Origin: an uncultured Lachnospiraceae bacterium | GTDB lineage: Bacteria > Bacillota > Clostridia > Lachnospirales > Lachnospiraceae | DNA length: 64,000 nt | Assembly (NCBI GenBank): GCA_947577185.1 | Contig: CANPUE010000003.1 | Span: 62,001-126,000 of the forward strand | Direction: 5' to 3' | Shown: positions 45,976-64,000 of the stretch, one piece after another | Layout of the letters: each line of letters starts with the position of its first letter | How positions within the stretch are numbered: the stretch's first letter is position 1 | Made by a program: the position numbers and the translations under genes | The notes under the pieces: model-generated | Told to the model about the DNA's origin: nothing | The model's input: the letters and a program-made list of their open reading frames with translations, nothing else | The model's database searches: none

Positions 45976-47088
45976 ATGCAGGATAATAATTTACAGATGA
46001 GGGCAAAAAGAAAAGGAAAAAGAAGGGTTGAAAACGGGATTCTGTTTGGTTCCATTCTCCTTTGTCTGATTACGCTAGCAGCGATTACAGTCTGCCTGAT
46101 TATGGTCTTTAAATACCGTGCCTCGCAGCTGGAAAATGAAACGGTGATGCAGGAACTCGAAGTCATGCAGGAGATGTATACAAAAGAACAGGTGGATGTT
46201 CTGTTAGCGGAAAAAGAACAGGAGAGCGCGCAGGAAGCTTCGCAGCAGACACAGGAGGAAATTCTCACCAGGATGAAAGAGTCCATGCTTTCCGGTGAGG
46301 GAGCAGTCAAAATGCTGCGGCAGTTTTATCCCGATGAAATTGTCATGGTAGACAATAACCAGTACTACTTTATCCCGATTCTGGACACCGTTGCGCATCA
46401 TGACTATAAGCCGGAAAATTTTGTACATACTGTGGATAATCTGATCGAATATTATGAAGACGAAAAACGCATCTCACACAAGGGCATCGATGTCTCAAAA
46501 TATCAGGAGCGCATAGACTGGGAAAAAGTTGCGCAGGACGAGGTCGAATATGCCTTTATCAGAGTCGGTATCCGCGGCTATACCGAAGGGGAGATTCTGG
46601 AAGACGATACCTTTGCTTATAATATCAGACATGCGCTCGAAAACGATATCGCGGTCGGCGTCTATTTCTTCACACAGGCGACGAGTATAGAGGAGGCACA
46701 GGAGGAGGCACAGTTTGTTCTGGATGCACTGGAACCTTATGACGTGACTTATCCGGTGGTCTTAGACGTGGAGGCGGTGACCGGCACGAATGCGAGAGCG
46801 GGGGAACTGACCAAAGAAGAGAGAACGCAGTACTGCATTGCTTTTTGCGATATGATCAGACAGGCAGGCTATACACCGATGATCTATGGAAACCTGAAGA
46901 CTTTCATGCTCATGCTTGACTATGAGAAATTGGAGGAATACGATAAGTGGTTTGCACATTATGATGAACAGGCTTATTTTCCCTATGAATTCAAGATATG
47001 GCAGTATACAGATTCCGGCACTGTGGCAGGGATCAAAGGAGACGTAGATATGAACATCAGCTTTGAGGATTATGCAAATGGCAGATGA
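45976..47088 (+). CDS. Membrane-anchored GH25 muramidase
   Basis: A 370-residue protein. A basic N-terminus (KRKGKRR) and one membrane helix (22-46) place the rest outside. A coiled-coil stalk (50-105) leads to a GH25 lysozyme domain from about 168. Catalytic acids of the family are visible: Asp172 in GIDVSKYQ, and Asp264 and Glu266 in VVLDVEA. It should cut the peptidoglycan sugar chain and probably serves wall remodelling. Its final codons overlap the start of the AraC gene. Confidence 0.9.
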   Translation: MQDNNLQMRAKRKGKRRVENGILFGSILLCLITLAAITVCLIMVFKYRASQLENETVMQELEVMQEMYTKEQVDVLLAEKEQESAQEASQQTQEEILTRMKESMLSGEGAVKMLRQFYPDEIVMVDNNQYYFIPILDTVAHHDYKPENFVHTVDNLIEYYEDEKRISHKGIDVSKYQERIDWEKVAQDEVEYAFIRVGIRGYTEGEILEDDTFAYNIRHALENDIAVGVYFFTQATSIEEAQEEAQFVLDALEPYDVTYPVVLDVEAVTGTNARAGELTKEERTQYCIAFCDMIRQAGYTPMIYGNLKTFMLMLDYEKLEEYDKWFAHYDEQAYFPYEFKIWQYTDSGTVAGIKGDVDMNISFEDYANGR

Positions 47089-47965
47089 GGCAGGCAGAGA
47101 GAGGACTTTCAAAACACAGGAAGGATGGCAGGAACCGTATGAAAAGACCGGTTATCTGACGGAGCCTTTTAAACTGTTCCATATCAAAGACTGCTGTGAC
47201 AGAGAATTTCCATTTCACTATCATGATTTTTATAAAATCATCTATTTTGTGTCAGGCAGGGTCAGCTATAAGATAGAAGGAAAGACTTACCGGTTAAAAC
47301 CACATGATTTCGTTCTTGTCAATTATAATGCAATCCATAAGCCGGAAATAGAAGATGCCGTGCCGTATGAACGATATATCATCTATCTGTCCGGAGCGTT
47401 CATGCGGCTGGAAAACAGACTGGGACAACGTCTGGACCATTGTTTTGCAATGGCAGGGGAAAACAACAATCATGTGGTTCATTTCGTTCCGGGCAGCTAT
47501 GAGAGACTGTTAGACTGCCTGTTGCGGATGGAACGGGCGGCGGGGCAGGAACAGGAATTTTTAAACGACAGAATGATGGAAGCGTCTTTTCTGGAATTTA
47601 TGGTCCTGTTCAACAGGATGTGCATTGCGCAGCCTCAATCGTTTATTACAACTGCCGTCTATAATGAGAAGATCGTGGATATTATTTCTTATATTCAGGA
47701 GCACCTGACAGAACCGATCAGCATCGATTTTCTGTCAGGTCATTTTTATATCAGCAGATATCATCTGATGCGGCAGTTCAAGGAAGCGACTGGCTGTTCG
47801 ATCCACCAGTACATTAATGAAAAAAGAATATTAGACGCAAAACGGAGGATCCTGTCCGGGGTTCCGGCGTCCAAGGCCTGTTATGACTGCGGATTTGCCG
47901 ATTATTCAACCTTTGCGAGACGGTTTAAGGATATTGTGGGGGTGGCGCCGTCGGGGGTGCGGTAG
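47078..47965 (+). CDS. AraC family transcriptional regulator
   Basis: A 295-residue regulator. ATG 47078 is eight bases after GAGGA; ATG 47072 is possible. The N-terminal half is a cupin-type sensor domain (FPFHYHDFYKIIYFVSGRVSYKI, about 43-65). The C-terminal half has the two helix-turn-helix motifs (SIDFLSGHFYISRYHLMRQFKEATG; ASKACYDCGFADYSTFARRFKDIVG, about 210-290). AraC proteins with this layout answer to sugars or similar small molecules. It overlaps the muramidase gene and may control neighbours; the ligand is unknown. Confidence 0.93.
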   Translation: MADEAGRERTFKTQEGWQEPYEKTGYLTEPFKLFHIKDCCDREFPFHYHDFYKIIYFVSGRVSYKIEGKTYRLKPHDFVLVNYNAIHKPEIEDAVPYERYIIYLSGAFMRLENRLGQRLDHCFAMAGENNNHVVHFVPGSYERLLDCLLRMERAAGQEQEFLNDRMMEASFLEFMVLFNRMCIAQPQSFITTAVYNEKIVDIISYIQEHLTEPISIDFLSGHFYISRYHLMRQFKEATGCSIHQYINEKRILDAKRRILSGVPASKACYDCGFADYSTFARRFKDIVGVAPSGVR

Positions 47966-47977
47966 AATGATATGAAA

Positions 47978-48006
47978 TTGACATATGTATTTTATTAAGA
48001 TATAAT
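47978..48006 (+). promoter_or_regulatory. Consensus sigma-A promoter of the zinc-ribbon / type VII cluster
   Basis: Perfect TTGACA (47978-47983), 17-base spacer, perfect TATAAT (48001-48006). The leader up to the first start (48123) is about 110 bases. No terminator is seen between the nine genes that follow. Confidence 0.85.
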
Positions 48007-48122: not shown

Positions 48123-48563
48123 ATGTCAATTATCGATAAACTGAGCAGTGGAATGAATGAGGCAGGCAACACGATAACGCAGAAAGCAAAGGATATTTCC
48201 GAGCAGACCAGGCTTACCGGTGAAATTGCCAAAAACAAAGCGAGAAGAGAAGAGGAGATCAAAAAATTAGGAGAGGCATATTATCAGGCCAGACGGAAAA
48301 ATGAGCCGGAAAATCTTGAGGAATCCGTTCATGAGATTGAACTGATTGATGGAATTCTTGAGAAACTGACAGAAAGCCTGTGTCGGCTCAAGGGGATTAT
48401 CCTGTGCGGTCAGTGTGGCTCGGAGGTGCCCAAAGGCAGCCTTTTTTGTCCGTCCTGCGGGGCGCAGATCAAACAGCCGTCTGTGATCAGATGCGGCAAA
48501 TGCGGAGCGCAGCTTGATGCCGGCAGCCGGTTTTGTATACAATGTGGGACAAAAATAGAATAG
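48123..48563 (+). CDS. Coiled-coil protein with two C-terminal zinc ribbons
   Basis: A 146-residue cytosolic protein. Residues 1-88 are helical and charged, likely a coiled-coil hairpin. Two zinc ribbons follow: C-x2-C...C-x2-C at about 95-113 (CGQCG...CPSCG) and at 123-142 (CGKCG...CIQCG). It has no membrane helix, unlike most of its neighbours, and no WxG motif, so it is not a WXG100 substrate. First gene after the strong promoter; the kinase gene begins 22 bases later. Perhaps an adaptor for the zinc-ribbon membrane proteins; this is inference. Confidence 0.8.
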   Translation: MSIIDKLSSGMNEAGNTITQKAKDISEQTRLTGEIAKNKARREEEIKKLGEAYYQARRKNEPENLEESVHEIELIDGILEKLTESLCRLKGIILCGQCGSEVPKGSLFCPSCGAQIKQPSVIRCGKCGAQLDAGSRFCIQCGTKIE

Positions 48564-48585
48564 AACATGCTTGAGGGAAACATAG

Positions 48586-50283
48586 ATGGGTAACATTTGT
48601 TATGGGTGTTTTGCGGCGTTAAAGGGGGACGAGAATGTATGCCCGTATTGCGGGTATCGTCTTCATGAAGACACGACGCCGATCCACATTTTAAAACCGG
48701 GTACTGTGCTGAACCAAAAATATACGATTGGTAAGACACTTGGGGAAGGCGGCTTTGGAATTACTTACCTCGCCTGGGATAATAATATGCAGACGAAGAT
48801 TGCCATTAAAGAGTTCTATCCGGCGAATCTGGTCAGACGTGATACTGCTTCGAAAAACAGTACAAAGATCTATACGATAACAACATCGTACAGGGAAGAA
48901 TTTCATACGGGTCTGGAACGTTTCGTAAAAGAAGCTTCTGTTTTGGCCAAATTTTTTAATCTGCCGGGAATCGTTTCCGTAAAAGATTTCTTTTATGAGA
49001 ATGAGACTGCCTACATTGTCATGGAGTACATAGACGGGATAACCCTGAAAGAGTACTTGAAGCGAAAGGGCGGGAAACTCACTGTAGACGAAACGCTTGC
49101 GCTGATGAGACCGGTCATGGAATCACTGGCAGTAGTCCATCGGAGCAAGATGCTGCATCGGGATATCAGTCCGGATAATTTAATGCTGTCATCAGATTCT
49201 CAGATCAAGCTGATTGATTTCGGCTCCGCACGTTATTATGATGCGCAGTCAGATCAGAGTATGACAGTCGTTTTGAAACATGGATATGCACCTATAGAAC
49301 AGTATTCGTCCAACGGGCATCAGGGGGCATGGACAGACGTGTACAGTCTGTGTGCGACCATGTACCGGATGCTTGCGGATAAAGTGCCGGAAGAGGCGAT
49401 CAACAGGGTCAGGGAGGATTCTCTGGCGTCATTGTCATCCTTCGTGAAAAAAATCCCCAAAAACGTAGAATCGGCAATCGTGAAAGGATTGTCAATATTG
49501 CCGGATAAGAGACAGCAGACTGTGGAAGAGCTGTACCGTGACCTTTATATGAGCCCACAGGGAATGCGTGTGGAAAAGAGAAACCGTGCATATCGGAATA
49601 TTAATAAATTTCTGACCAGAATGATTGCGATTCTGCTGTTGTTTATCGTGTGCGCAGCTGTACTCTGGATAAAACGGGACGAGATCCGGGAGTTTCAGGA
49701 CAGAGCAGGCGGTGCTTTGTATGCGGTGCTTGCACCGGGAAAGGAAGAGGCGGAAGAAACAGAAAGACGCATGCAGCGGGAAATAGAATCCGAAGCGGAA
49801 GTAACGGAGCCTGATACAAAAGAAGCAGATCAAACAGAGGATTTGGCAGAAACGGACATAGTGCCGGCAGATCAGAGCAGGCCGGAGAAAGTGTTTGTGC
49901 CGGAGCCGGAGACTGCACAGGAAGATACCAGTGCGGGGACGCAGTCTTATCAGAAGATGCGTTCCGGGGCGGAGTCTGTCCCAGAGACAGATTCTGCGGT
50001 CGTTAAGGTAAAAAACGGACGTTTAAACAATATCGTTTCCGACCATACAGTGGGAGAGATACTGGATATGTATTCCGACAGGGAAGGAACATGGTATACC
50101 TATGAGGAAGCGGAGGGTACTTTTGTATATTATGAAGGTTTAAAAAATGGCGAACCTTTTGTTCTGGAGTTTGAAGTATACGCAAACGATGTGTTTAAAC
50201 TGACGGGCGCTGCACTCAATAACACAGTATTAGAGCGGTATTCTGATTTCTTTCAGGGAATTTTGGACAGTCTTGGATTCTGA
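48586..50283 (+). CDS. Membrane Ser/Thr protein kinase with N-terminal zinc ribbon
   Basis: A 565-residue protein. A short zinc ribbon (Cys5, Cys8, Cys19, Cys22) leads into a Hanks-type kinase at about 47-322: Gly loop GEGGFG (53-58), catalytic Lys75, the HRDISPDN loop with Asp193, and DFG at 211-213, so it should be active. One membrane helix (347-362) puts a ~200-residue part outside: an acidic linker and a C-terminal domain (from about 470) I do not recognise. It lacks PASTA repeats. Probable targets are the Thr/Ser residues read by the FHA domains encoded further down. No phosphatase gene is in view. Confidence 0.92.
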   Translation: MGNICYGCFAALKGDENVCPYCGYRLHEDTTPIHILKPGTVLNQKYTIGKTLGEGGFGITYLAWDNNMQTKIAIKEFYPANLVRRDTASKNSTKIYTITTSYREEFHTGLERFVKEASVLAKFFNLPGIVSVKDFFYENETAYIVMEYIDGITLKEYLKRKGGKLTVDETLALMRPVMESLAVVHRSKMLHRDISPDNLMLSSDSQIKLIDFGSARYYDAQSDQSMTVVLKHGYAPIEQYSSNGHQGAWTDVYSLCATMYRMLADKVPEEAINRVREDSLASLSSFVKKIPKNVESAIVKGLSILPDKRQQTVEELYRDLYMSPQGMRVEKRNRAYRNINKFLTRMIAILLLFIVCAAVLWIKRDEIREFQDRAGGALYAVLAPGKEEAEETERRMQREIESEAEVTEPDTKEADQTEDLAETDIVPADQSRPEKVFVPEPETAQEDTSAGTQSYQKMRSGAESVPETDSAVVKVKNGRLNNIVSDHTVGEILDMYSDREGTWYTYEEAEGTFVYYEGLKNGEPFVLEFEVYANDVFKLTGAALNNTVLERYSDFFQGILDSLGF

Positions 50284-50317
50284 GAGAATGTTGTGATGCC
50301 AACGGGAGGAAGAAATC

Positions 50318-51919
50318 ATGAGATGCCAAAGATGCGGATGTGAAATAAACGAAGGAAGTAAATTTTGTACAGGATGCGGGAGCCCGACTGCGCAGGGGGC
50401 GGAAGAACGAAAGCGCCCGTTCAGGGCGGGGATTTATGTACTGTGTGTCTTGCTGGTGCTGGTTCTGGGAATCATTGTGTTTTTGGCAGGCCTGATCATC
50501 CGGGGCGTGCGCGGGGAAAAAGCGGCATGGCAGGAGGACCGGGGGGAAAATGGTCCGGATGACGGAAAGAGGCATTCAGGACAGGACGAAAATGAAAACG
50601 AGGGAGATGACGGAGAAGAGAATCCATTTGCCTCCGGCGATCTTCTGGTGACGGTGCCGGCTGAATATATGTCGCTTCGTACGGCGCCCGGACTTGGAGA
50701 CGATGTGATTGCTGAACTCCCGCCAGGCGAGTACCTGCTCTGGGCCGGTGAAACACAGACGGTGCAGGAACGTGATTTTTATCGGGTGATGACACAGGAG
50801 AGCGGGGAAATCGGGTATGTCGCCGCAGATTACTGTGTTCTGGTGGACTACCTGGATGACCCGGAATTATTGACAGTCGTAGATTCGACGGATGCACTTT
50901 ATACATATGACAGGATGCAGGAGGACATCAGTACTTTATGCGGTATGTATCCGGACTGCCTGTCTTATGAAACTGTCGGATACAGCCGGGACGGCAGGGA
51001 AATCTGTGAGGTCACACTGGGAAACGGCAGTGCGGGTCACCATATTTTTGTCCAGGCGGCCATTCACGGCAGAGAATACATGACAGCGCAGCTGGTCATG
51101 AAAATGCTGGAGTATTATGCGGCTAATTATCATATTGGCAGCTATCATGGCAGAACCTATGAAACATTATTTGAAAATACAGCGATCCATGTCATTCCCA
51201 TGTCAAATCCGGATGGGGTGACGATCAGCCAGCTGGGTGTGGCGGCAATGAACCACCAGGAAACAGCGGAACTTGTCTATGAATGTTACCTGAGAGATCT
51301 GGAAGATCTGGTACTGGAAGAGGACGTAAACGGTGACAGGAACTGGGCTGACTATTATAAGCAGGAGGATTATGACAGAGAGGCAGAGGGAAAGACGGAC
51401 ATCATTTCCTTTGAGGACTATCAGCATTTGTGGAAAAGCAATGCCGGGGCGGTAGATCTGAATAACAATTTTGACGCGGGCTGGGAGGATGTGCAGGTTA
51501 AGCCGGAGCGCGCCTATGGAAGTTATAAAGGGGATTATGCCGTATCTGAACCGGAGACGCAGGCGCTTGCTGAAACAGCAGCAAAAAGGGAATACGACTA
51601 TTTTATCAGTTATCACGCGAAAGGCCAGCTGATCTACTATGATGCCGAAGGGAATGATGAGCAGACATCAGAACGCTCCCGTGAACTGGCTGCTGCATTG
51701 GAAGGCCTTATCAAGTATAAGCCTGTGAATACAAAGAAAGGATACAATGTGAATCTTGGAGGATTTGGCGACTGGGTGCAGCTAAAACTGCATGGTGCCA
51801 GTGTGACGATTGAGATCGGGAAGCATCCCTGTCCGCTCCAGGCAGGGGAATTTAATGGAATCTGGCATCGCAACAGGGAGTCATGGGCGATGCTTTGCGA
51901 AAAACTATATGATTCATGA
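50318..51919 (+). CDS. Zinc-ribbon, membrane-anchored M14 carboxypeptidase with SH3-like domain
   Basis: A 533-residue protein. Zinc ribbon (Cys3, Cys6, Cys17, Cys20), membrane helix (38-62), acidic linker, an SH3-like domain (about 108-176), then an M14 metallocarboxypeptidase domain. The zinc ligands are His250 and Glu253 (HGRE) and His433 (SYHAKG), with catalytic Glu499 (TIEIGK) and the VDLNNNFDAGW substrate segment, so it looks active. Extracellular M14 enzymes of bacteria often trim peptidoglycan peptides. ATG 50318 follows GGGAGGAAG. Confidence 0.9.
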   Translation: MRCQRCGCEINEGSKFCTGCGSPTAQGAEERKRPFRAGIYVLCVLLVLVLGIIVFLAGLIIRGVRGEKAAWQEDRGENGPDDGKRHSGQDENENEGDDGEENPFASGDLLVTVPAEYMSLRTAPGLGDDVIAELPPGEYLLWAGETQTVQERDFYRVMTQESGEIGYVAADYCVLVDYLDDPELLTVVDSTDALYTYDRMQEDISTLCGMYPDCLSYETVGYSRDGREICEVTLGNGSAGHHIFVQAAIHGREYMTAQLVMKMLEYYAANYHIGSYHGRTYETLFENTAIHVIPMSNPDGVTISQLGVAAMNHQETAELVYECYLRDLEDLVLEEDVNGDRNWADYYKQEDYDREAEGKTDIISFEDYQHLWKSNAGAVDLNNNFDAGWEDVQVKPERAYGSYKGDYAVSEPETQALAETAAKREYDYFISYHAKGQLIYYDAEGNDEQTSERSRELAAALEGLIKYKPVNTKKGYNVNLGGFGDWVQLKLHGASVTIEIGKHPCPLQAGEFNGIWHRNRESWAMLCEKLYDS

Positions 51920-51954
51920 TAACGGGTCAACTACAGCAAATGAGGGAGGAAAAA

Positions 51955-54234
51955 ATGTACTGTAAGAATTGTAGCATGAAACTGGATGACGGGGTATTGT
52001 TCTGCCCCAATTGTGGATGCAGAGTGGAGGAAGAGACGGCAGGCGGCGCAGCAGACGACATGTCAGATAAAACTGTGCTGATAAATGAAAATCAGACCGC
52101 AGAGCAAAATGCGCAGAGCATGGATGCACAGGATACAGCTGCTGCGGTTGAAGCAATGCCGGAAACAGTAGAAGCGCTTCAAATATCACCAACGGGAGTC
52201 GTGGAAACGAACGAGGCCGTAGTCGTGCCGCAGACTCAAAATGTACAGAAAAAATACTGTCCTAATTGCGGCACAGCCAATCATATAAATGATTTATTCT
52301 GTCAGGAGTGCGGCATGTTTTTTGGCAATGCGGCGGATAAAACGCGACAGGAAAATGCCAGTAAGGCTGATCAGAAAAAGAAGGTCTGGAAAATTGCAGT
52401 GCCGGTACTGGCGGGTGCGGCGGTATTTGTCCTCTGCATCTTCTTTTTACCGCGTCTGTTTGCGGCGGTAGGCGGCAGAAAGGCGGAAAAAGAGTATCTT
52501 ATCTATATAAAAGATAATGAGCTGTACATGGCAAAGCCGAATCAGTATGAACCGATTCAGATAGACGATAAGTGCTATGAGGATGAAGATGCTATGGGGA
52601 GCGGGTATTCTTACAATAACCAGGTCAGTGTTTCTCCGGATGGGAAATATCTTTATTATCCAACGGAATACAATATGAAGGAGATGTATAACCCCTACAA
52701 TTTATACTGCAAAAAAATCGGCAGCAAAAAAGCGGAGGAAGAAAAGATCGATTCCGACGTTGTTTTTTATCAGATTATTGACGATGACAGACTGATCTAT
52801 ATCAAAGACAGCGAAGACCGTAAGCTATATTTATACAGTCAGGGAAATTCGGAGAAGATTGCTTCTGACGTTGCAAATGTATCTGTTTCGGAGGATGGAA
52901 AAAATGTGCTCTGGAAATCCAGTGACGGAGAGCAGAGACTGTATATGCAGGATCTGGCGTTGAAGCAGGATAAGGTGAAACTGGACTCTGATGTGGAATG
53001 GTATCAATGTTCGGATGATTTAAACACCATTGTTTACAGGAAGGATGATAATCTGTATCTGCTGAATGACCTGGACGAGAAGGAAAAGATTGCATCCGAT
53101 ATTATGAGCAGTTATGTATACGGAATTAACGATAACCTTCAGATTTACTATATGAAGGAGGGCGATGATGTTGCGTTGTCAAGCTACGATATGATTGAGG
53201 ATGATTTTCTGGCGCAGGATCAGAAGATGACCGAACCCCGGATTGAAGACTATCAGACAAAGACCTATGTGAATGATTTCTTTGGCACACGGGAAAAGAC
53301 AGAGACTGATGACGCTTATTATGAAGCGATGGAGCAGTACCAGCAGAAACTGGCGCGTGATTACATCCGGGAAAGACTTTCCGGTGAAGAGTTGAATCAA
53401 AATGCTGTTGAAATCTATTACTTTGACGGGAAAAAGAGAGAGAGCACAAAAGTAAAAGAAAGCGTCATGATGAACGGATATTCTCTGCAGACTGAAACGA
53501 CAGCACTGATGTATCTGTGGGAGATTGATGCGGATAAAATAGAAGGGATCAAATTATCTTCGTTGATGGAAATGGACGAAGAAACGATACAACGAAAAAT
53601 GACGGAAGTATTGATATCGTCTTTACCGTTTATCTATCTCAAAGACGGAGAAGTTTTTGAAATGCCGCAGATCGACTGGGACGAGATCGATTTGGAAGAA
53701 ATGGAAGATATGTCGGTCAGTGCAGATGAAGCGTCACATAGTATCAGTATCATATTTGAATATAGTAAGTATACAGATACACAGGAATCTTATCATGCGG
53801 AAGTGTATTCATTTGACTATACCGATCCGGAAGCGGAACTTACGCTGCTCACTGATGAGGCGGCAGAAGGGATAGGCTATATTTCAGGAGAATTTTATTA
53901 CATCAATACAGATGGAGATTTGTATCGCAATGATACGAAGGTGGACAGCGATGTATACAGTTTTTCAGTTGTGGAGCAGGAGAACGGAACACTTCTTTAT
54001 CTGACAGATATCGACGAAGACAAACAGGAAGGAACATTAAAACTGTATCAGAATGGCAAAAATAAGAAGATCGCGGATGATGTGCCTACAAACAGTTATG
54101 GTTTCTTTGACAGCGATAAGGTCGCGTTCCTGTCAGACTACAATTTTAAAAAATTGAGGGGTGACCTGAAAGTATATGACGGAAAAGAAGCAGTCAATAT
54201 TGATTCGGATGTGAAGCAGATCGTATTTTATTGA
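51955..54234 (+). CDS. Membrane protein with two zinc ribbons and a propeller-like extracellular domain
   Basis: A 759-residue protein; ATG 51955 lies behind GAGGGAGG. Two zinc ribbons (Cys3-Cys6-Cys17-Cys20 and Cys102-Cys105-Cys116-Cys119) are split by an Ala/Glu-rich linker, and a membrane helix spans about 144-170. The ~590-residue outside part has many repeating short units such as VSVSPDGKYLYYPT, NVSVSEDGKNVLWKS and a recurring IASDV/DSDV element, typical of a beta propeller of the WD40/DUF5050 kind. It has no catalytic motif and is likely a binding or sensing domain. Very acidic and Tyr-rich. Confidence 0.82.
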   Translation: MYCKNCSMKLDDGVLFCPNCGCRVEEETAGGAADDMSDKTVLINENQTAEQNAQSMDAQDTAAAVEAMPETVEALQISPTGVVETNEAVVVPQTQNVQKKYCPNCGTANHINDLFCQECGMFFGNAADKTRQENASKADQKKKVWKIAVPVLAGAAVFVLCIFFLPRLFAAVGGRKAEKEYLIYIKDNELYMAKPNQYEPIQIDDKCYEDEDAMGSGYSYNNQVSVSPDGKYLYYPTEYNMKEMYNPYNLYCKKIGSKKAEEEKIDSDVVFYQIIDDDRLIYIKDSEDRKLYLYSQGNSEKIASDVANVSVSEDGKNVLWKSSDGEQRLYMQDLALKQDKVKLDSDVEWYQCSDDLNTIVYRKDDNLYLLNDLDEKEKIASDIMSSYVYGINDNLQIYYMKEGDDVALSSYDMIEDDFLAQDQKMTEPRIEDYQTKTYVNDFFGTREKTETDDAYYEAMEQYQQKLARDYIRERLSGEELNQNAVEIYYFDGKKRESTKVKESVMMNGYSLQTETTALMYLWEIDADKIEGIKLSSLMEMDEETIQRKMTEVLISSLPFIYLKDGEVFEMPQIDWDEIDLEEMEDMSVSADEASHSISIIFEYSKYTDTQESYHAEVYSFDYTDPEAELTLLTDEAAEGIGYISGEFYYINTDGDLYRNDTKVDSDVYSFSVVEQENGTLLYLTDIDEDKQEGTLKLYQNGKNKKIADDVPTNSYGFFDSDKVAFLSDYNFKKLRGDLKVYDGKEAVNIDSDVKQIVFY

Positions 54235-54279
54235 TGACAGTCTGTCTGCTCATCAGGGAAGAAAAGGTAGAGTTTAATC

Positions 54280-56058
54280 ATGTATTGTACAAAATGTGGC
54301 GCTCAAATCGGCGAAAATATGAAATTTTGTCCCAAATGCGGAAATCCCGTACAGAAAAATGCAGGAGGGACGCCGTCTTTACCGCCTGTACCGCCAATGT
54401 CTTTTCCGTCTGCAGGAGGGGAAGCGCCGGATGGAAATCAGGAGGAGAAACCGGCCGGCAAAAAGCTTATGCTTATCCTGATTCTGTTGATCGTGCTGCT
54501 CCTTGGCGGCATTGGAGGAGGCGCTGTTTATTTCGTGGGACAGTATCAGGATGAGAAGCGTTATGAGGGAGCGGCCGGCAGAGGAGAGGCATCGGAAGAA
54601 TCCGAATCATCACAGGACGATGATGAAGAGGATACGGAAGCAGATGAGTCTTCGGATTCCGACGAGGAAGAGCCGCAGGTCTATGAAGGAGAACGCAGAC
54701 CGCTGAATCTGAATATTCACCAGGTGGACAATTCCAGATTCCCGGAGATCACTTTTTATGCTAGCGCTGTGGATGAGAATAATAATGTTGTGGAAGATCT
54801 GGATGCATCAGATTTCACGATACAGGAAATTGATGTTTCCGGTCAGGTGAAGGAAGTCGAGATCGAAGAAGTATACAGGGTTCTCCATGAAGATACGATC
54901 AGTGTCAATCTGGTGCTGGATGCCAGCGGCAGTATGTCTGACTATAATAAGATGGACCAGGCCAAAAATGCGGCGAACGCGCTGCTTTCACAGATGAATC
55001 TGGAAAGCGGAGATCAGGCCGAGATCATTTCTTTTGATAATTATGTTTATCTGAATCAGGACTTTACCAGCCAGAGGCAGCTGCTGACAGATGCACTTGA
55101 TACGATTGAACCGGGCGATATGACCGCACTGTATGATGCCCTGTATGCGGGTTTATATCAGACGTATTTTGAGTCCGGTGTAAAATGTGTCATTGGTTTC
55201 ACGGACGGTCTGGAGAATTACAGCAGTTATACGTTCGAGGACGTGGTAACGCTGTCACAAAACAGCAGTATTCCCGTTTTTATCATCGGGATCGGGGAAG
55301 AGTATGATGCGGATGCTCTGCGTATGCTGGCAGAGGAATGTTCGGGGGCGTATTATTCCGCCAATGTGGAAGATCTGGAAAGCATACTGACGGATATCTA
55401 TTTGAGCATTTATGAGCAGCAGCAGGACTACTATGTGTTTCAATATACGTCGCCCGATACGGAGAATCAGAACCAGTTTCGGGACATCGTGTTATCGACG
55501 TCTGAGACGACGGAATTTTATGGAACTTATACGAAAGAGTATGTGCCGCAGTCTGATATCAGCGGTGCATTTGCCAGCGATTATATGAATATGGATTATA
55601 TGCTGGAGTTTTCGAGTCAGAGAGAGGTCACTGCGGCCGATCTGCAGGGACTCAGTCTCGCACAGCTGCGGATCGCCAGAAACGAAGTCTTTGCCAGACA
55701 TGGCAGGCAGTTTAAGGACAGTATGCTGAATCAATGGTTCTATTCCAGAGCATGGTATTTGAATCTTCCAATGAAATATTCGCCGGATGATTTCGACCGG
55801 ATAAATCCGAGTCCGCTTACAAAACTGGAATTGCAGAATGTCGAATTTATCAGGAATTATGAGGCAGATCTGATGAATAACAGCGACATTTATCCTGACG
55901 CGGCCAATACGCTTTTATCTGATTATGACCTGGCTTTGAGCAGGATTGTACTCAAAAATGCGCTGGCGCAGATACAAAATTATCCGGATACGGAGATCCT
56001 GCGGCAGAATAAGCAGTTGATCGAGCAGGCTATTAACAAGGAGGACATAAAATATTAG
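54280..56058 (+). CDS. Zinc-ribbon membrane protein with vWA and YARHG domains
   Basis: A 592-residue protein. Zinc ribbon (Cys3, Cys6, Cys17, Cys20), Pro-rich linker, membrane helix (about 63-86), a strongly acidic Ser/Asp/Glu stretch (100-132), then a von Willebrand A domain (about 205-375). The metal-ion site is complete: DxSxS at 214-218 (DASGS), Thr282 and Asp309. A YARHG domain (about 458-530; [15 protein letters not shown]) follows; this domain is found on surface proteins and thought to act on or bind the wall. The vWA may bind a partner protein. ATG 54280 is 45 bases behind the preceding gene. Confidence 0.9.
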
Positions 56059-56063
56059 GGCAT

Positions 56064-57185
56064 ATGAAGGGAAAATGGAAAAAGATTGTGATCTGCGGTA
56101 TCGTATTGAGCATGCTGACAGGCTGCAGCGGCAAAAAGGAAACGATGCAGGATGAGACGGTAGACAGGCAGGCACAGCAGATTGAGATCCCGCAAGACCA
56201 GGAAAAAGAGGATGTGGCGGTTGGGCTGGAAGAAAATACGGATGAGAAGGAAGCACCGCCTGTCATGAAAGAATTTGTCAAGATTACGGCAGATGAAGTG
56301 AATATAAGAGATTATCCTTCTACAGGGAACGATTCTGCCATAATCGGGAAGGCTTTTCAGGGTGAGGAATATCCTTTTATAGCCGGCAATGAGGAATGGT
56401 GCCAGATTAGTTTTGAGGGATCGGAGGCCTTTGTCAGTCGTGATTTCGCTGAGGTATTTCTAAGGGCAGAGGATACTGATGCGGAAGCGGCACAGACAGT
56501 GGAGACAGAGGAAAAAGAAGACGGACTGCGGGAAAACGGACAGGGAAAGCTGATCGTGATCGACGCGGGACATCAGGAAAAAGGAAATTCTGAGAAAGAG
56601 CCTGTTGCGCCCGGAGCCGATGAAATGAAGGCCAAAGTCTCCTCCGGTACGCAGGGCGCGTACAGTGGAGTCGCTGAATATTTGCTGAATCTGGAAGTTT
56701 CATTGAAATTAGAGCAGGAATTAACAGACAGAGGATACCGGGTCATTATGGTCAGGAAAGAAAATGCGGTGAATATCAGCAACAGTGAACGGGCGCAGAT
56801 CGCCAACGATGCACAGGCGGATGCGTTTGTGCGGATTCACGCGAACGGTTCGGAAGACCATTCGGTAAATGGGATGATGACGATCTGTCCAACTGCGGAA
56901 AATCCGTACTGCGGAGAACTCTATCAGAGCAGTAAACTGCTTTCAGAATGTATTCTGGATGCTATGGTGCGCGCAACCGGAGCGGTGAGAGAGAAGGTGT
57001 GGGAAACAGACACCATGAGCGGGATCAACTGGTGTAAAGTTCCGGTAACGATTGTTGAGATGGGCTACATGACAAATGAAAAGGAAGATCTGGCCATGCA
57101 GACGGATGAATATCAATGGAAGATCGTATATGGCATTGCCGATGGGTTAGATGAATATTTTTCAGAATCAGAAAGAAACGGATGA
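56064..57185 (+). CDS. Lipoprotein N-acetylmuramoyl-L-alanine amidase with SH3-like domain
   Basis: A 373-residue lipoprotein: lipobox LTGC (Cys21), acidic linker, SH3-like domain (about 68-135), then an Amidase_3 domain from about 162. Zinc ligands His170 (DAGH), Glu211 (LNLEVS) and His259 (RIHAN), and catalytic Glu332 (VEMGY) are all present, so it should remove peptide stems from peptidoglycan. It is the only outside-facing member of the cluster without a zinc ribbon. Five bases follow the vWA gene, showing tight coupling. Confidence 0.92.
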
Positions 57186-57201
57186 TGAGGAGGAAAAAGA
57201 A

Positions 57202-58455
57202 ATGTTTTGTCCAAAATGTGGAAAACAGCTTCCGGAAGCGGCAAAATTCTGCACAGCATGCGGGGCACAGATGACAGCTTCCGGTTCTGAAAAGCCAGTC
57301 ATGAAAATGAAACCGCAAAAGCCGGCACAGACGCCGGCCGTTCCACCGGCAATGCCGGACAGGGAAGACATTGGACTGCGTTCCGATATGGAGGCAGTTA
57401 CGCAGCGTGACAGGGAGATGGCGGATAAAAATAAACGAACGATGCTGATCCTGTTGTGTGTTCTGCTTGTATTGGTGCTGATAGCGGGCGGGATGGCAGC
57501 ATATTATTTTGTCGTATTAAAAGACAATAGCACCGGGAAAGAAAACGTAACAGCACAGTCTGATGAGGATAATGAGCAGGAAAATATGGAGGAAGAATCG
57601 GACGATACGCAGCAGGTGGACGATAAAACCGAAACGGATCCTGTTTTGGAGACAGGGGAAGCAGACTCCCGGGAAGAAAATTTATCGGAAGAAACTGCAG
57701 CTGCCCAGGCAGACGATCAGGTTGTATCGGATATCAATGAAGTGGTGAATGATGTTATTTTAACGAATGTGCCCAAGGCGCTTTATTCGTATGATTTTGA
57801 GGAAGAACTGGGCGGTGCGCAGGTGGTTGTCAGAAACGCGCCTGAAGCAATGCCTGAGATTACAAATGACGTGGAAGCACAGTATGTAACAGGCATAGAT
57901 GGCAAAGCGGTCTATCTGGATGGAACCTATGGCATCCGGCTGAGTGATGTGGAAAAAATCGGGACATCTTATAGCGTTGCCTTCTGGATGAAGGCTGAGG
58001 AACTGTATGACTGGGCGCCTTTTATCCATATCGGATACAAACTGCTGGATCAGACTCAGAGATGCCGTCTGTGGCTTGGACAAAAGACCGACGGAGCGGC
58101 CATTTCACCGATTCTCAGCTCTGAACATGCAGGAACGGGAGTCTCTTTTGAGATCCGGCCAAACAGAGTGGTCTATGCGATGGATCCGGGTGTCTGGTAT
58201 CATATCGTGTTTACGGTGGATGGCAGTGTGCAGGGCAGCAATGCGAACAGTCTGTATGGTTCGCTGTATGTTGCCGGGCAGTATGCCGGAGGCGGAGACA
58301 TTGCTTTAAATACGATGAATGTGGATGATTTTGATGTGTACCTTGGCATCAACTGCTGGGACGTCTTATATCCGGCAGCTTTTGACGGTGTAAAAATATG
58401 GAATCAGGTATTGGATGCAGATCAGGTGGAAGAATTGTTTAATGCGTACAGATGA
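57202..58455 (+). CDS. Zinc-ribbon membrane protein with LamG-like extracellular domain
   Basis: A 417-residue protein. ATG 57202 follows GAGGAGG. Zinc ribbon (Cys3, Cys6, Cys17, Cys20), Pro-rich linker, membrane helix (80-105), acidic linker (110-185), and a concanavalin A/LamG-type jelly roll (about 192-417) with the usual YSYDFEE opening, SVAFWMKAEE, WYHIVFTVDG and GVKIWNQVLDADQVEELF ending. Such domains bind sugars or proteins. No catalytic residues are evident. It likely recognises a surface polymer. Confidence 0.87.
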   Translation: MFCPKCGKQLPEAAKFCTACGAQMTASGSEKPVMKMKPQKPAQTPAVPPAMPDREDIGLRSDMEAVTQRDREMADKNKRTMLILLCVLLVLVLIAGGMAAYYFVVLKDNSTGKENVTAQSDEDNEQENMEEESDDTQQVDDKTETDPVLETGEADSREENLSEETAAAQADDQVVSDINEVVNDVILTNVPKALYSYDFEEELGGAQVVVRNAPEAMPEITNDVEAQYVTGIDGKAVYLDGTYGIRLSDVEKIGTSYSVAFWMKAEELYDWAPFIHIGYKLLDQTQRCRLWLGQKTDGAAISPILSSEHAGTGVSFEIRPNRVVYAMDPGVWYHIVFTVDGSVQGSNANSLYGSLYVAGQYAGGGDIALNTMNVDDFDVYLGINCWDVLYPAAFDGVKIWNQVLDADQVEELFNAYR

Positions 58456-58544
58456 GATGATAAGCTTCCCTGTTTTTCCTGGATGGTCATTCATTCCAAT
58501 AACCGGGCCGTCCGTCAGGATTGATCTGGAATAACGCTTCGATC

Positions 58545-58553
58545 TGATATTAT
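58545..58553 (+). promoter_or_regulatory. Possible extended -10 before the FHA-like gene
   Basis: TGATATTAT fits TGnTATTAT, in the largest gap of the cluster (58456-58619). No -35 is evident. It may give the FHA-essC part extra transcription. Confidence 0.3.
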
Positions 58554-58619
58554 GGTATTGTCTGCAGGAACTTCCGGCAGTAAATTTGTCAATTTGATAG
58601 AGAAAATGGTGAAGATAAG

Positions 58620-59246
58620 ATGAATGATTTGTTTGCATTTTCAGGAGATAACAACAAAATAATACTGACAGCGGTAATCGTAATTTTTGTCATGACCGCA
58701 ATCATTCTGTTCAGCAGACTGATCCGGAAAAAACAGAAGAAAAAGGAACTGTCGCAGGCGGCGGAAGATAAGATGCGGGATGAGAACCTGAATCAGGTCA
58801 TCTTAAATCAGCACAGAAGCGGCGGGCGCTTCAAAGAAGTACATAAACCCTATGATGTGGATTACAGCAGGCCAAATGGCACGGGTGGTAAGAACAATAC
58901 AGATTCTCAATGGGCGGGGGAAGAAGGCGTCATGGTCCAGATGATCGAGAGGACCGAACTTTCTACCCGCAAATTCATGATGAATCCCGCGAAACCAATC
59001 CGTGTCGGCAGCGATCTGCAGGATAATGATATTAATGTGCTGGCGGAAGGGATTTCGGCACATCAGTTTGAAATCTTTGCAGTTCGGGATAAAGTCTTTG
59101 TCAGAAATATAAGTTCTGAAAACAGGACGATCCTGAAGCGAAAAAGAGAACAGGCCATCGTTGATGAAAAAGGCATTAGAATGCTTTCGGAAGACGCGAT
59201 TCTTGCAGGCTGTGTCTCTTATGACATTACGATTGTACAGCGATGA
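58620..59246 (+). CDS. Membrane-anchored FHA-like protein
   Basis: A 208-residue protein with one membrane helix (14-35) followed by a basic stretch, so the rest is cytosolic. Residues about 120-208 resemble an FHA domain: IRVGSDLQDNDINV, ISAHQF and VRNISSENRTIL. The Ser-x-His element is kept, but the phosphothreonine-contact Arg after the first Gly is Ser (VGSD instead of GRS/GRN), so phospho-binding may be weak or lost. It sits directly before the EssC-type gene, as FHA proteins often do in type VII loci. Confidence 0.78.
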   Translation: MNDLFAFSGDNNKIILTAVIVIFVMTAIILFSRLIRKKQKKKELSQAAEDKMRDENLNQVILNQHRSGGRFKEVHKPYDVDYSRPNGTGGKNNTDSQWAGEEGVMVQMIERTELSTRKFMMNPAKPIRVGSDLQDNDINVLAEGISAHQFEIFAVRDKVFVRNISSENRTILKRKREQAIVDEKGIRMLSEDAILAGCVSYDITIVQR

Positions 59247-59290
59247 TAAGCAGATCATATACCAGAGAAGCCTGACGGGGGGACAAAAAT

Positions 59291-62200
59291 ATGAGCATGA
59301 TTCTTTCAGTACACAGCACAAAAGCGTTTCAGGAGTTTTTGCTGCCTGCGGTCAATAACGCGGAAAATTCCATCATTCTGGACAATCAGATTTTTTCATT
59401 GGAGAAAGACATCGAACTGCGCATGGAAGTGATCGAAGGCTGCTGGCATTTTCTGCATTCGGAAGTTTACCGGATTGAAGATACGGTAAATCATGTTGAA
59501 TATTTCGGGATTACCTTGCGCGATGGAGACCTTCTGACAGTTCTTCTGCCGGGAGCGGAGCGGATTTCTGTCATGATCGATGAGACCGAAAGCTGCTTCA
59601 AAGTTTTTGAAAAATATGACATACAGGGGATAGACAGGATCACAGTCGGCAGGAACGAGACGAATGATATTGTTTATAATACCAGAAACCTGATTTCCGG
59701 GGAACATGCCGTGCTGCGCCAGACGGGGACACAGTGTATTTTGGAGGACAGGAGTGCAAACGGCGTCTTTGTCAATTCGCGCAGGATCGTCGGCTCCAGA
59801 CAGTTGGAATTTGGTGACTGCGTGAGTATATTCGGACTCAGCATGGTGTATTTGTCCAATATTCTGGCGGTCAATTCGCAAAATGACGGCTTTCATGTGG
59901 ATCATGAGAAACTGAAAAGACATGAAAGTGAGAGAATAGAGAGTAATGAGGCAGGATGTTCGGAAAAAGCCCACAATAAAAAAGTTTATCATCGTTCGCC
60001 GAGACAGATTTACAGGATCGATAATGATACTGTGGAAATCGAAGCACCGCCGCAGCCCAGAGATTTGAATAAAAAACCGATTGGCATGCTGATCGGACCA
60101 TCCATGACGATGGCGCTGCCGATGCTTCTTGGCTGCGGTCTTTCGATCTACAGTACGAAAGTGAGCGGCAATTCTGGAAGCGCATTTATGTATACCGGGC
60201 TGGTGACGGCCGTATCCTCAGCACTCATCGGAACCGTGTGGGCGCTTGTGAATCTGCATGTAGAGAAAAAGAAAAACAGGGAAGAGGAACTTCACAGGTT
60301 TGAAGCGTATGGAGAGTATCTCATCAGATGCTCTAACCAGATCAAGGAAAAATATGAGAAAAATACGAACAGTCTGAACAGTATGTATGACTCGGCGCAG
60401 GCGTGCTGCGGATACGATGAGAAAAACCCTCTTTTGTGGAACAGAAATGCCAATCATGAGGATTATCTGAGTTACCGGCTGGGAACCGGGGAGATTCCCT
60501 TTCAGGTGCAGGTGTCCATTCCAAAAGAGCGTTTTACGCTTGTAAATGACTCCCTGGCAGAAAAACCCGCGATGATACGGGACAGCTTTAAAGAACTTCA
60601 TAATGTACCGATCTGTGTCGATTTACACACGCACAGGCTCGTCGGGATCATAGGCGGCGGAAAGAAAAAAGGCGCGGTGGAGATTATGCACATCATGGTG
60701 TCTCAGATTGCTGCCTCCAACTGTTATACGGACGTTAAGATGGCGTTTCTCTATGACGAAGGCAGGGATGATTCGGACGACTGGGAATATATGAAATGGT
60801 TTCCGCATGTCTGGTCGGAAGACAAAAAGAGCAGATTTGTGGCGAAGAACAAAGTAGAGGCAGGGGATGTTTTATATGAAATCACGAAAGTCCTGCGGAC
60901 AAGAGCGGAGAACAGATCTGTAATTTCATCAAAAAAGGAAAAGCTGCCATCACCGCAGTTCATTCTGTTTTTATCTGATCCGGAATTGTTGGAGAGCGAA
61001 CTGATCACCAAATATATTACGAATGAGGACAACCAGGATATTACTACGGTCTTTTTGACAGATCATTATGAGAACCTGCCGAACGAATGCGGCTATATCA
61101 TACAGAATGACGAAACTTTCACCGGAATGTACGGTATTGAGGATGATACGGAAAACAGGAAACAGATCGCCTTTGACAGCATTTCCAATGTTCAGCTGGA
61201 AAAGCTGGCGAGAACACTGGCGAACATAGAAGTGCGTGAGACGCAGTCCGGCGGGGACATTCCCGCATCGCTTACCTTTTTTGACATGTATGGAGTACAG
61301 CGTCTGGATGAGTTTAACGTACTGGACAGATGGCGTAAAAACCGTACTTACGACAGTATGAAAGCCCTGATTGGTCAGCGTGCCGGGGAAAGCAGCTGGT
61401 ATCTGGACATCCATGAGAAGTACCACGGGCCGCATGGTCTGATTGCGGGAACGACCGGATCCGGTAAGAGTGAAACCCTGCAGACATATATTTTATCGCT
61501 GGCGCTGAATTTCAGCCCGGATGATATCGGTTTCTTTCTGATTGACTATAAAGGAGGGGGGATGGCCAATCTATTTAACGGCCTTCCGCACATGATCGGA
61601 CAGATTTCCAATCTCTCCGGCAATCAGGTGAAACGTGCCATGGTTTCGATCAAGAGTGAGAACAAGAGAAGACAGCGCATTTTTAACGAGCATGGTGTGA
61701 ACAATATCAACCTGTACACCAGACTGTACAAAAACAACGAGGCGAGTGTCCCGGTACCGCATATGTTTATCGTGATCGATGAATTTGCGGAACTGAAACG
61801 GGAGGAACCCGATTTTATGCGTGAACTGATCAGTGTCGCGCAGGTCGGAAGAAGTCTCGGCGTGCATCTGATTCTGGCGACGCAGAAGCCGAGCGGAACG
61901 GTGGATGATAACATCTGGAGCAATTCCAAGTTCAGACTGTGCCTGCGCGTTCAGGACAGGCAGGACAGCAATGATATGCTGCACAGACCGGATGCCGCGT
62001 ATATCACGCAGGCCGGACGCTGTTACATGCAGGTGGGAAACGACGAGTTATTTGAATTATTTCAGTCAGGATTCAGCGGGGCAGTTTATGATGAGGAAAA
62101 CGGAAACATGAAATCCGACATCGCCCATATGCTTTCCACGACAGGCAAGGCGGCGCTGATCGGAAACCGTTTGAAATTAAAACAGACAGCACTGATTAAA

Positions 62201-64000
62201 AAAAGATGGATAGAACAGTTATTGGGAATTTTGTCTCAAATTGAGCTGCCGGCCGGATATACGCTGGAAATGCTGTTAAACGACGGCAGTCTTTTGGAAA
62301 CCTGGATACAGGGGGCATTCACGCAGCTGTCTGCGGCAGGTATTGATTTTCCTTACAGTGAGTACAACGCGCAGCGGATCAGAGATCTGATGAGCGCATG
62401 GGCGGCAGTGCGGGAAGATTCCGACAGGACGGCGGAACAGATTCTTGCATATGCGGATCAGAACAGACTGAAATTACCGGAAAAGAAGCTAAAGACACAG
62501 CTTGACGCTGTCGTTGAATATCTGGCGGGAATCGCCAGAGAGAACGGATATCTTCATAATCTGCAGCTATGGCTCCCGGTGCTTCCTGTTTCGCTGTACT
62601 TAAATCAGCTTCCGTCTTATCAGAAAGAAGCATACTTTAACGGACACGAGTGGCCAAAGCCGCATAAAGAATGGAAGATTGAAGTGGATATGGGTCTGTA
62701 TGATGATCCGGTCAACCAGATGCAGGATAGTTTCGTCATGAACCTGTCGCATAATGGACACCATGCCATCGTGGGTACGGTTGTCAGCGGAAAGAGTACA
62801 TTTTTACAGACCTTTGTCTATGGACTGGTCAATAAATACACACCTGAGCAGGTTACTGTCTATGGGATCGATTTCAGCGCTAAAATGTTGTCAGCGTTTG
62901 AAAAGATGCCGCATGTGGGCGGTGTGATGTATGAGAATGATGAGGACAGACTGGCGAAGTTTTTCAATATGCTGGGTACGATGCTGGAAGAGCGCAAACA
63001 ACGTTTCAAAGGCGGAAACTACAGCCAGTATGTGCGGGTCAACGGAGTCTCCTTACCGGCTGTCGTCATTGTGATCGACAATTATTCTAATTTTAAAAAT
63101 AAAACGAACAATATTTATGAAGAAATGATCCTGCAATTATCCAGGGACGGTGTAGGCTATGGAATCTTTCTTGTGATCACGGCCGGAGGATTCGGGGCGT
63201 TAGAGATACCAAACCGTATCGGAGATAATCTGCGGACGGTCATCTGTCTTGAAATGAGTGATAAATTTCAGTATGCGGAGGCCATGCGGACGATGCATAT
63301 AGAAACACTGCCGGAAGTGAATATAAAAGGACGGGGACTTGCCAGAGTCGGCGAGCAGCTTTTAGAGTTCCAGACTGCTTTAAGTTTCGAAGCAGGAGAT
63401 GATTTCAAGCGGATGGAACAGATCGAACAGCTTGCGGAAGTGATGAGAGAAAAATGGAGCGGACGGCCCGCAAAACCGATCCCGGAGATACCGCAAAAAC
63501 CTGTATGGTCAGAGTTTTCCAGACTGGAAGACGTCGGAAAGCTTCTTGAGGACGACAGGCATCTTCCGATTGGCTATAATACCCAAAATGCTGCGGTCTA
63601 TGGGATTGATCTGAGCAGACTTTATTGTTACCTGATCACCGGCAAGCCGCGAAGCGGTAAGACAAATCTGCTCAGGATCATGATAAATGCGGCATTATTG
63701 CGGGGAGGCAGCGTTACTATCATCGATTTTGGCGGCGATTTTACGAATCTGGAAGAGAATTCTCCGGTGGATGTGATCAATACCGACATGAAAATGTTCC
63801 AGTTTTTCTCTGATCTGCTTCCGGAGTTTAAGAAACGCAACATACAGAAAAAACAGGCAGCGCGGGAAGGGATGTCAGATGAGGAGATTTATCAGGAGAT
63901 GCGTTCAAACCGTGCACAGTTCATTTTCATTGCCAACCTGGCAGATTTTGTGCAGCATGTGGCGCATCCTAAGGATGCGGCTGATGTGAAAGCCTTTGTA
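59291..64000 (+). CDS. essC: EssC-type FtsK/SpoIIIE ATPase of type VII secretion (3' end outside the window)
   Basis: 1,570 codons are open to the window edge with no stop. ATG 59291 follows GGGGGGACA. Two N-terminal FHA-type domains: residues 1-100 divergent; 100-185 canonical, with Gly120-Arg121, Ser136, His139 and Asn157. Two membrane helices lie near 264-320. Three FtsK/SpoIIIE ATPase domains follow: Walker A at 720-727 (GTTGSGKS), with IDYKGGG and the FIVIDEFAEL Walker B; 1162-1169 (GTVVSGKS); and 1451-1458 (GKPRSGKT). A ~180-residue helical segment separates the first and second. This is the motor that selects and exports WXG100/LXG-type proteins in Firmicutes. It is missing only the last part of the third domain. 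Confidence 0.93.
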   Translation, partial: MSMILSVHSTKAFQEFLLPAVNNAENSIILDNQIFSLEKDIELRMEVIEGCWHFLHSEVYRIEDTVNHVEYFGITLRDGDLLTVLLPGAERISVMIDETESCFKVFEKYDIQGIDRITVGRNETNDIVYNTRNLISGEHAVLRQTGTQCILEDRSANGVFVNSRRIVGSRQLEFGDCVSIFGLSMVYLSNILAVNSQNDGFHVDHEKLKRHESERIESNEAGCSEKAHNKKVYHRSPRQIYRIDNDTVEIEAPPQPRDLNKKPIGMLIGPSMTMALPMLLGCGLSIYSTKVSGNSGSAFMYTGLVTAVSSALIGTVWALVNLHVEKKKNREEELHRFEAYGEYLIRCSNQIKEKYEKNTNSLNSMYDSAQACCGYDEKNPLLWNRNANHEDYLSYRLGTGEIPFQVQVSIPKERFTLVNDSLAEKPAMIRDSFKELHNVPICVDLHTHRLVGIIGGGKKKGAVEIMHIMVSQIAASNCYTDVKMAFLYDEGRDDSDDWEYMKWFPHVWSEDKKSRFVAKNKVEAGDVLYEITKVLRTRAENRSVISSKKEKLPSPQFILFLSDPELLESELITKYITNEDNQDITTVFLTDHYENLPNECGYIIQNDETFTGMYGIEDDTENRKQIAFDSISNVQLEKLARTLANIEVRETQSGGDIPASLTFFDMYGVQRLDEFNVLDRWRKNRTYDSMKALIGQRAGESSWYLDIHEKYHGPHGLIAGTTGSGKSETLQTYILSLALNFSPDDIGFFLIDYKGGGMANLFNGLPHMIGQISNLSGNQVKRAMVSIKSENKRRQRIFNEHGVNNINLYTRLYKNNEASVPVPHMFIVIDEFAELKREEPDFMRELISVAQVGRSLGVHLILATQKPSGTVDDNIWSNSKFRLCLRVQDRQDSNDMLHRPDAAYITQAGRCYMQVGNDELFELFQSGFSGAVYDEENGNMKSDIAHMLSTTGKAALIGNRLKLKQTALIKKRWIEQLLGILSQIELPAGYTLEMLLNDGSLLETWIQGAFTQLSAAGIDFPYSEYNAQRIRDLMSAWAAVREDSDRTAEQILAYADQNRLKLPEKKLKTQLDAVVEYLAGIARENGYLHNLQLWLPVLPVSLYLNQLPSYQKEAYFNGHEWPKPHKEWKIEVDMGLYDDPVNQMQDSFVMNLSHNGHHAIVGTVVSGKSTFLQTFVYGLVNKYTPEQVTVYGIDFSAKMLSAFEKMPHVGGVMYENDEDRLAKFFNMLGTMLEERKQRFKGGNYSQYVRVNGVSLPAVVIVIDNYSNFKNKTNNIYEEMILQLSRDGVGYGIFLVITAGGFGALEIPNRIGDNLRTVICLEMSDKFQYAEAMRTMHIETLPEVNIKGRGLARVGEQLLEFQTALSFEAGDDFKRMEQIEQLAEVMREKWSGRPAKPIPEIPQKPVWSEFSRLEDVGKLLEDDRHLPIGYNTQNAAVYGIDLSRLYCYLITGKPRSGKTNLLRIMINAALLRGGSVTIIDFGGDFTNLEENSPVDVINTDMKMFQFFSDLLPEFKKRNIQKKQAAREGMSDEEIYQEMRSNRAQFIFIANLADFVQHVAHPKDAADVKAFV

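Follow-up and report, generated by a model that had tools for sequence, protein, structure and literature searches.

In an uncultured bacterium of the family Lachnospiraceae, a block of seven genes, six of them with zinc ribbons, lies just ahead of the genes for a TM-FHA protein (TM, transmembrane segment) and for EssC, which belong to a type VII secretion system (T7SS). The core of this system consists of an FHA-bearing EssC, which a LytTR gene usually follows, together with YukD and a number of WXG100 genes. That core does not include the ribbon block, which is accessory to it; yet in the family, zinc-ribbon genes, and most of all the ribbon kinases, show a linkage with EssC loci beyond chance. 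The explanation that we put forward, and to which we give about even credit, is that of a variant T7SS coupled to threonine phosphorylation, beside which an optional set of zinc-ribbon membrane proteins is encoded.

The DNA comes from assembly GCA_947577185.1 (2.49 Mb, 67% complete; hereafter the own genome, G000). The window, that is, the whole stretch of 64,000 nucleotides that was analysed, corresponds to positions 62001-126000 of contig CANPUE010000003.1 (C3), and the gene block and EssC under study occupy window positions 48123-64000. Relatives of EssC were sought among 397 genomes of the family at E ≤ 1e-190, and at least 34 of these, own genome included, carry an EssC akin to that of the window; the genus mates within the set, G060 and G370, gave no such EssC at that threshold. 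Neighbourhoods were examined in 33 relatives and at three named Lachnospiraceae loci, the latter being all that a contig scan with the EssC query yielded. Many of the relatives' contigs stop near EssC, and genome counts are lower bounds because few candidates were scored per genome (up to nine for kinases, up to three or two for EssC).

The Zinc-Ribbon Block

A sigma-70-type promoter, TTGACA-N17-TATAAT (47978-48006; 12 of 12 consensus bases, 17-base spacer), is followed by nine open reading frames on the same strand, as the sequence-only reading of this DNA had proposed; promoter and genes, like the other window features described below, are on the forward strand. That reading had given gaps of 5 to 45 bases with one of 164. 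The 164 and the 45 are correct but the minimum is not, the actual range being -4 to 45, with a 4-base overlap between 50318-51919 and 51916-54234. Just upstream of the promoter (45976-47965) lie genes that, judged from the sequence, resemble a GH25-type lysozyme and an AraC-type regulator.

Domains were assigned by Pfam and TM segments by hydropathy. The first gene, ZRcoil (48123-48563), encodes 146 aa with two C-terminal zinc ribbons and no TM. ZRkin (48586-50283) combines a zinc-ribbon motif, recognised by CxxC spacing only as Pfam makes no call, with a Ser/Thr kinase domain in which HRD and DFG are both present, a single TM after the kinase domain, and an outer domain that has no Pfam match. 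In ZRM14 (50318-51919), a zinc ribbon and a TM are accompanied by a weak SH3_3 match and an M14 carboxypeptidase with HxxE, while ZRprop (51916-54234) carries two zinc ribbons, a TM and a large outer domain, putatively a propeller, which gave no DUF5050 match in Pfam at E 0.01. ZRvWAYARHG (54280-56058) has a zinc ribbon, a TM, a vWA domain with DxSxS present, and YARHG. Ami3 (56064-57185) is an N-acetylmuramoyl-L-alanine amidase (Amidase_3) with no ribbon and with an LTGC that by eye is lipobox-like. The last gene, ZRLamG (57202-58455), encodes a zinc ribbon, a TM and Laminin_G_3; its start is more likely at 57202 than at 57151, and AGGAGG precedes the former, which lies 16 bases past the end of the amidase gene.

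One TM follows the ribbon in ZRM14, ZRprop, ZRvWAYARHG and ZRLamG, and the domains beyond the TM segment would face outward. The earlier description of the set as wall-facing fails for ZRcoil, which is not wall-facing because it is without a transmembrane segment. Pfam recovered each of the kinase, FHA, EssC, M14 carboxypeptidase and amidase domains that had been proposed. As for the three outside binding modules, it found vWA with YARHG and Laminin_G_3, but at the supposed propeller it shows zinc ribbons only. Seven of the 12 PF13240 matches in the own genome fall inside the ribbon block, and GC and GC3 per gene gave no sign that the block was acquired separately from the core.

The Junction and EssC

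Between the block and the TM-FHA gene there is a gap of 164 bases (58456-58619; synteny, sequence scan). A terminator or good promoter was sought there and none was found, so that the genes on its two sides may be co-transcribed. The gap is likely the edge between the accessory block and the T7SS core, and it looks like a synteny edge because the closest relative, G076, whose EssC is 73% identical, has no ribbon genes in the 6.3 kb examined upstream of EssC; its TM-FHA and EssC genes stand about 1 kb behind genes unmatched at the own locus.

The TM-FHA protein (58620-59246; Pfam, hydropathy) has one N-terminal TM and a degenerate FHA motif, with VGS in place of the phosphate-binding GR. EssC (59291-64000, truncated by the window end; 1663 aa at full length) contains FHA and FtsK/SpoIIIE ATPase domains; it scores 1108 bits against TIGR03928, the NCBIfam model of Firmicutes EssC (cut-off 778.4), and also matches PF01580. 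Its FHA domain keeps GR, SxxH and SxNGxxVN intact. Across the alignment, the phosphate-binding arginine is retained in 4 of 33 readable rows, the others having mostly K, S or another residue at that position (K by eye in G090). In one relative (G147:C73:4357-9315) the EssC gene holds one in-frame TAG and appears as two open reading frames.

A Type VII Secretion Locus

Beyond the window, EssC is followed by LytTR, a 243-aa orphan, YukD (31.2 bits against a cut-off of 27), a 121-aa orphan and five WXG100-like genes, the fifth at L008:10926-11246; one of the five scores below cut-off, and C3 has four WXG100 matches above it. After a gap of about 660 bases come a TPR protein, a 481-aa protein, two DUF4176 proteins, a vWA-TM-FHA protein, two PP2C phosphatases, an 816-aa kinase and a 785-aa kinase-TPR protein in which DFG was not found. 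It is the presence of YukD, WXG100-like, DUF4176, vWA-TM-FHA, PP2C and kinase genes to the right that identifies the locus as a T7SS. Type VII secretion had been proposed from the window; the locus is genuine and rich in kinases, phosphatases and FHA domains. The 481-aa protein and the two DUF4176 proteins (L008:12877-14990), a pairing that recurs in several relatives, may be a secreted substrate and its partners, respectively. In the gap that separates the TPR gene from the WXG100 genes, the minus strand holds a 179-aa open reading frame with a TTG start (L008:11320-11859).

The sequence-only reading had suggested that YukD and WXG100 genes may lie to the right together with EssB and EsaA, and the last two were not recovered: neither exceeds its curated cut-off in any of 15 genomes (own plus 14 relatives, these 81-99% complete), in a search whose Bacillus subtilis positive control scored above cut-off. 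The matches below cut-off, one weak for EssB in G147 and others for EsaA in G090 and G148, lie on contigs other than those of EssC. One could still think of a canonical T7SSb whose EssB and EsaA were missed through incomplete assembly, since the own assembly is 67% complete, EssC passes the Firmicutes EssC model and YukD is present. However, the same two components fall below cut-off in the more complete relatives, and in place of EssB and EsaA the loci have genes for kinases, PP2C and FHA proteins, so this idea is largely refuted and we regard it as highly improbable.

In the relatives, LytTR directly follows EssC in 27 of the 35 loci whose stretch extends past EssC, 12 of the 22 loci whose downstream stretch covers 8 kb or more have a long match to vWA-TM-FHA, and PP2C and kinase genes are common in EssC neighbourhoods. 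The recurrence of LytTR raises the question of whether the locus represents T7SSi in its Lachnospiraceae form, for which a LytR-like regulator (TsiN), an FHA-bearing ATPase and an EspG-like component are described in the available text of PMC11217815. LytTR would then be TsiN, and the 243-aa orphan between LytTR and YukD an EspG-like chaperone. Yet neither a profile of the 243-aa family against PDB nor its members against Pfam gave anything convincing (a homologue search from a relative of the protein returned two proteins). The EssC FHA motif is intact in the own genome, with variation among relatives, whereas that of T7SSi is described as poor (PMC11217815, available text), and the same text, as far as it goes, mentions no PPM phosphatase or separate FHA component for T7SSi. 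Altogether, we find the T7SSi reading improbable.

In a quick EssC tree with several long branches, 37 rows stand apart from a second group of 7 rows (SH-aLRT 100), which comprises a further T7SS of the own genome, on contig C20, and T7SSe-like systems. The C20 system (L010:726-13851) has a 1489-aa EssC, three WXG100-like genes, kinases and PP2C, with no zinc-ribbon kinases in the stretch examined.

An Accessory Block Linked to EssC

Among the matches listed, 28 of 33 relatives have no PF13240 ribbon within 5 kb of EssC. With the ribbon-free upstream region of G076, this led us to reject an obligatory ribbon/EssC operon. The sequence-only reading had itself named the occurrence of ribbon genes independent of essC in most genomes as evidence against its integrated module, and on these same figures this is largely the case: one fixed module is not supported, while a link between ribbons and EssC beyond chance stands.

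That link appears in separate tests. At least 6 of 34 genomes have a PF13240 gene no more than 5 kb from EssC, where 0.82 would be expected (P 1.4e-4), and with the limit at 20 kb at least 7 do, against 2.17 expected (P 0.004); excluding the own genome, the figures are at least 5 of 33 against 0.80 expected (P 0.001) and at least 6 of 33 (P 0.015). These distance counts cover 150 of 163 PF13240 matches, the other 13 being absent, and include some EssC ends inferred from open reading frame lengths, and their chance expectation ignores contig ends and takes genomes as independent. Ribbon kinases occur in at least 16 of 38 EssC genomes against at least 16 of 112 others (Fisher p 9e-4), and are absent at cut-off from 22 of the 38, among the candidates scored. 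At least 7 of the 16 genomes having both hold a ribbon kinase within 20 kb of any EssC, where 0.31 would be expected (P 1.1e-7 without the own genome), a limit of 20 kb that was picked once the positions were known. As to vWA-YARHG, 17 of the 397 genomes contain a relative (E ≤ 1e-30, mostly over the vWA part); at least six of these hold the EssC of the locus, and in at least four (own, G013, G137 and G253) the two are linked.

The arrangements themselves are diverse. In G013, the only genome of 150 besides the own to match all three ribbon proteins over the greater part of their length, a run with gaps of 27-92 bases comprises vWA-FHA, PP2C, ZRkin, ZRvWAYARHG and ZRprop. The G253 run includes vWA-FHA, PP2C, kinase-TPR, TPR, ZRcoil, two ZRprop, ZRcoil, ZRvWAYARHG, another ribbon gene and M14; that this cluster might be free-standing was rejected, EssC being on the same contig in one run. 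ZRcoil stands 36 bases ahead of EssC in G239. In the second EssC group, G012 and G017 show EssC, YukD and, further on, two PP2Cs, another gene and two ribbon kinases. One of the G012 ribbon kinases contains four PASTA repeats. The T7SSe-like locus of G012 also has a gene for a DUF6382-FHA protein, and beside it one for an 84-aa TM protein (L092:10946-11197) that bears a CxxC ribbon motif and has a 97-aa counterpart in G017. Tandem zinc-ribbon kinases with PP2C also occur in G063 (L054), G067 (L056) and G124 (L057), with no EssC in the stretch examined and with FHA-like genes beside the kinases in G063 and G124; these may be phospho-signalling clusters that stand on their own, or else T7SS loci truncated where a contig stops.

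The block could also be an independent module for wall sensing and trimming that stands beside the T7SS by chance, maybe co-transcribed with it, its kinase acting on wall growth and not on export. Several observations are consistent with this: ribbon clusters in G191, G260 and G037 are without T7SS genes in the stretch examined, 16 of 32 ribbon-kinase genomes lack EssC at cut-off among the candidates scored, and 58456-58619 looks like a synteny edge. In G076, contig C78 carries ribbon genes and a 64% identical amidase with no T7SS genes; this contig and that of EssC are both about 13 kb long, and as only 1.6 kb extends beyond EssC, C78 could adjoin there. Against such independence stand the linkage, far beyond chance expectation in two separate tests, the direct contact of the block with the T7SS vWA-FHA and PP2C genes in G013, and the distribution of the linked loci in the EssC tree, where the eight labelled ribbon-bearing are scattered over its branches, as would be expected of a block repeatedly gained or lost. 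The label test on this tree compares ribbon rows with the second EssC group alone and not with ribbon-free rows. We hold an independent module to be a real possibility, though less likely than not.

A Possible Phosphorylation Switch

FHA domains bind phosphothreonine and PP2C removes the phosphate from it; PASTA repeats bind wall fragments, and M14 and Amidase_3 enzymes cleave peptidoglycan. In the proposed T7SS variant, sensing of the surface or the wall would fall to the outer domains (vWA-YARHG, LamG, ZRprop and the outer part of ZRkin), and the kinases would phosphorylate a threonine for recognition by the FHA domain in either EssC or vWA-TM-FHA. PP2C would reverse this, thereby switching export, while the M14 peptidase and the amidase may trim peptidoglycan near the export site and the cytosolic ribbons perhaps serve as common docking tags. 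The EssC FHA motif and the kinase and peptidase motifs, all intact in the own genome, speak for such a switch; against it speak the TM-FHA protein without the GR arginine, the kinase-TPR protein without DFG, and the few EssC rows that retain the arginine. The explanation as a whole also has against it that the block is missing near EssC in most relatives. The switch may differ between species or have been lost in some. A broader proposal, in which zinc-ribbon kinases and wall-facing ribbon partners form a recurrent and unrecognised input layer of T7SSs in the family, with a shared ribbon dock, FHA-read phosphorylation and M14/amidase opening of the wall, appears doubtful to us.

How T7SSs pass through the thick wall, and which cue fires them, are largely open problems in non-model Bacillota. 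If EssC is controlled via FHA domains by a kinase that senses the wall, each gene of the switch can be put to the test in turn, and the linkage of zinc-ribbon kinase, EssC and PP2C provides a simple way to find such systems in genomes.

Comparison With Known Systems

Among literature titles and abstract starts, none describes the locus or a ribbon-EssC link, and the words "zinc", "PASTA" and "Lachnospir" are absent from the main text of PMC11217815 as available. The locus is treated as a variant because the published subtypes, as described, do not fit it. It resembles T7SSb in its EssC (by the NCBIfam model), YukD and WXG100, but it is not a canonical T7SSb because EssB and EsaA were not found above cut-off in the own genome and 14 relatives.

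T7SSe is described, in the available text, as having an FHA-bearing EssC, WXG100, YukD, a membrane Ser/Thr kinase, a PPM phosphatase and an extra FHA protein (Garrett et al., 2024, PMC11217815), all of which the locus shares. The mark of T7SSe and T7SSj in that text is the DUF6382-FHA component TseJ/TsjJ, together with a large Ig-like envelope protein, TsxI (PMC11217815). Unlike T7SSe, the locus has LytTR and vWA-TM-FHA in place of a DUF6382-FHA protein, and the T7SSe-like loci of relatives fall in the other EssC tree group. No DUF6382-FHA occurs anywhere in the own assembly; the domain is present elsewhere in 33 of the 34 genomes, and near an EssC of the locus type in G337 and G101 only. Besides EssC, no open reading frame of TsxI size is among those listed for C3:119001-147000. 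With T7SSj the locus has in common a kinase with TPR repeats, a PPM phosphatase and an FHA-bearing EssC, but TsjJ is absent and the TPR kinase of the locus shows no DFG. Membership in T7SSe or T7SSj was rejected, there being no DUF6382-FHA at the locus.

At the T7SSg locus, TsgL is a possible propeller protein according to the available text (PMC11217815), and ZRprop is a possible propeller too, although it differs in its ribbons, its TM and its lack of a DUF5050 match, and is not core. T7SSi shares the FHA-bearing EssC and perhaps the regulator, LytR-like in T7SSi and LytTR in the locus, whereas the locus adds kinases, PP2C and two further FHA proteins, and its EspG-like component is putative. 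The nearest subtypes are T7SSi, by its LytR-like regulator, a possible counterpart of LytTR, and T7SSj, by the TPR kinase.
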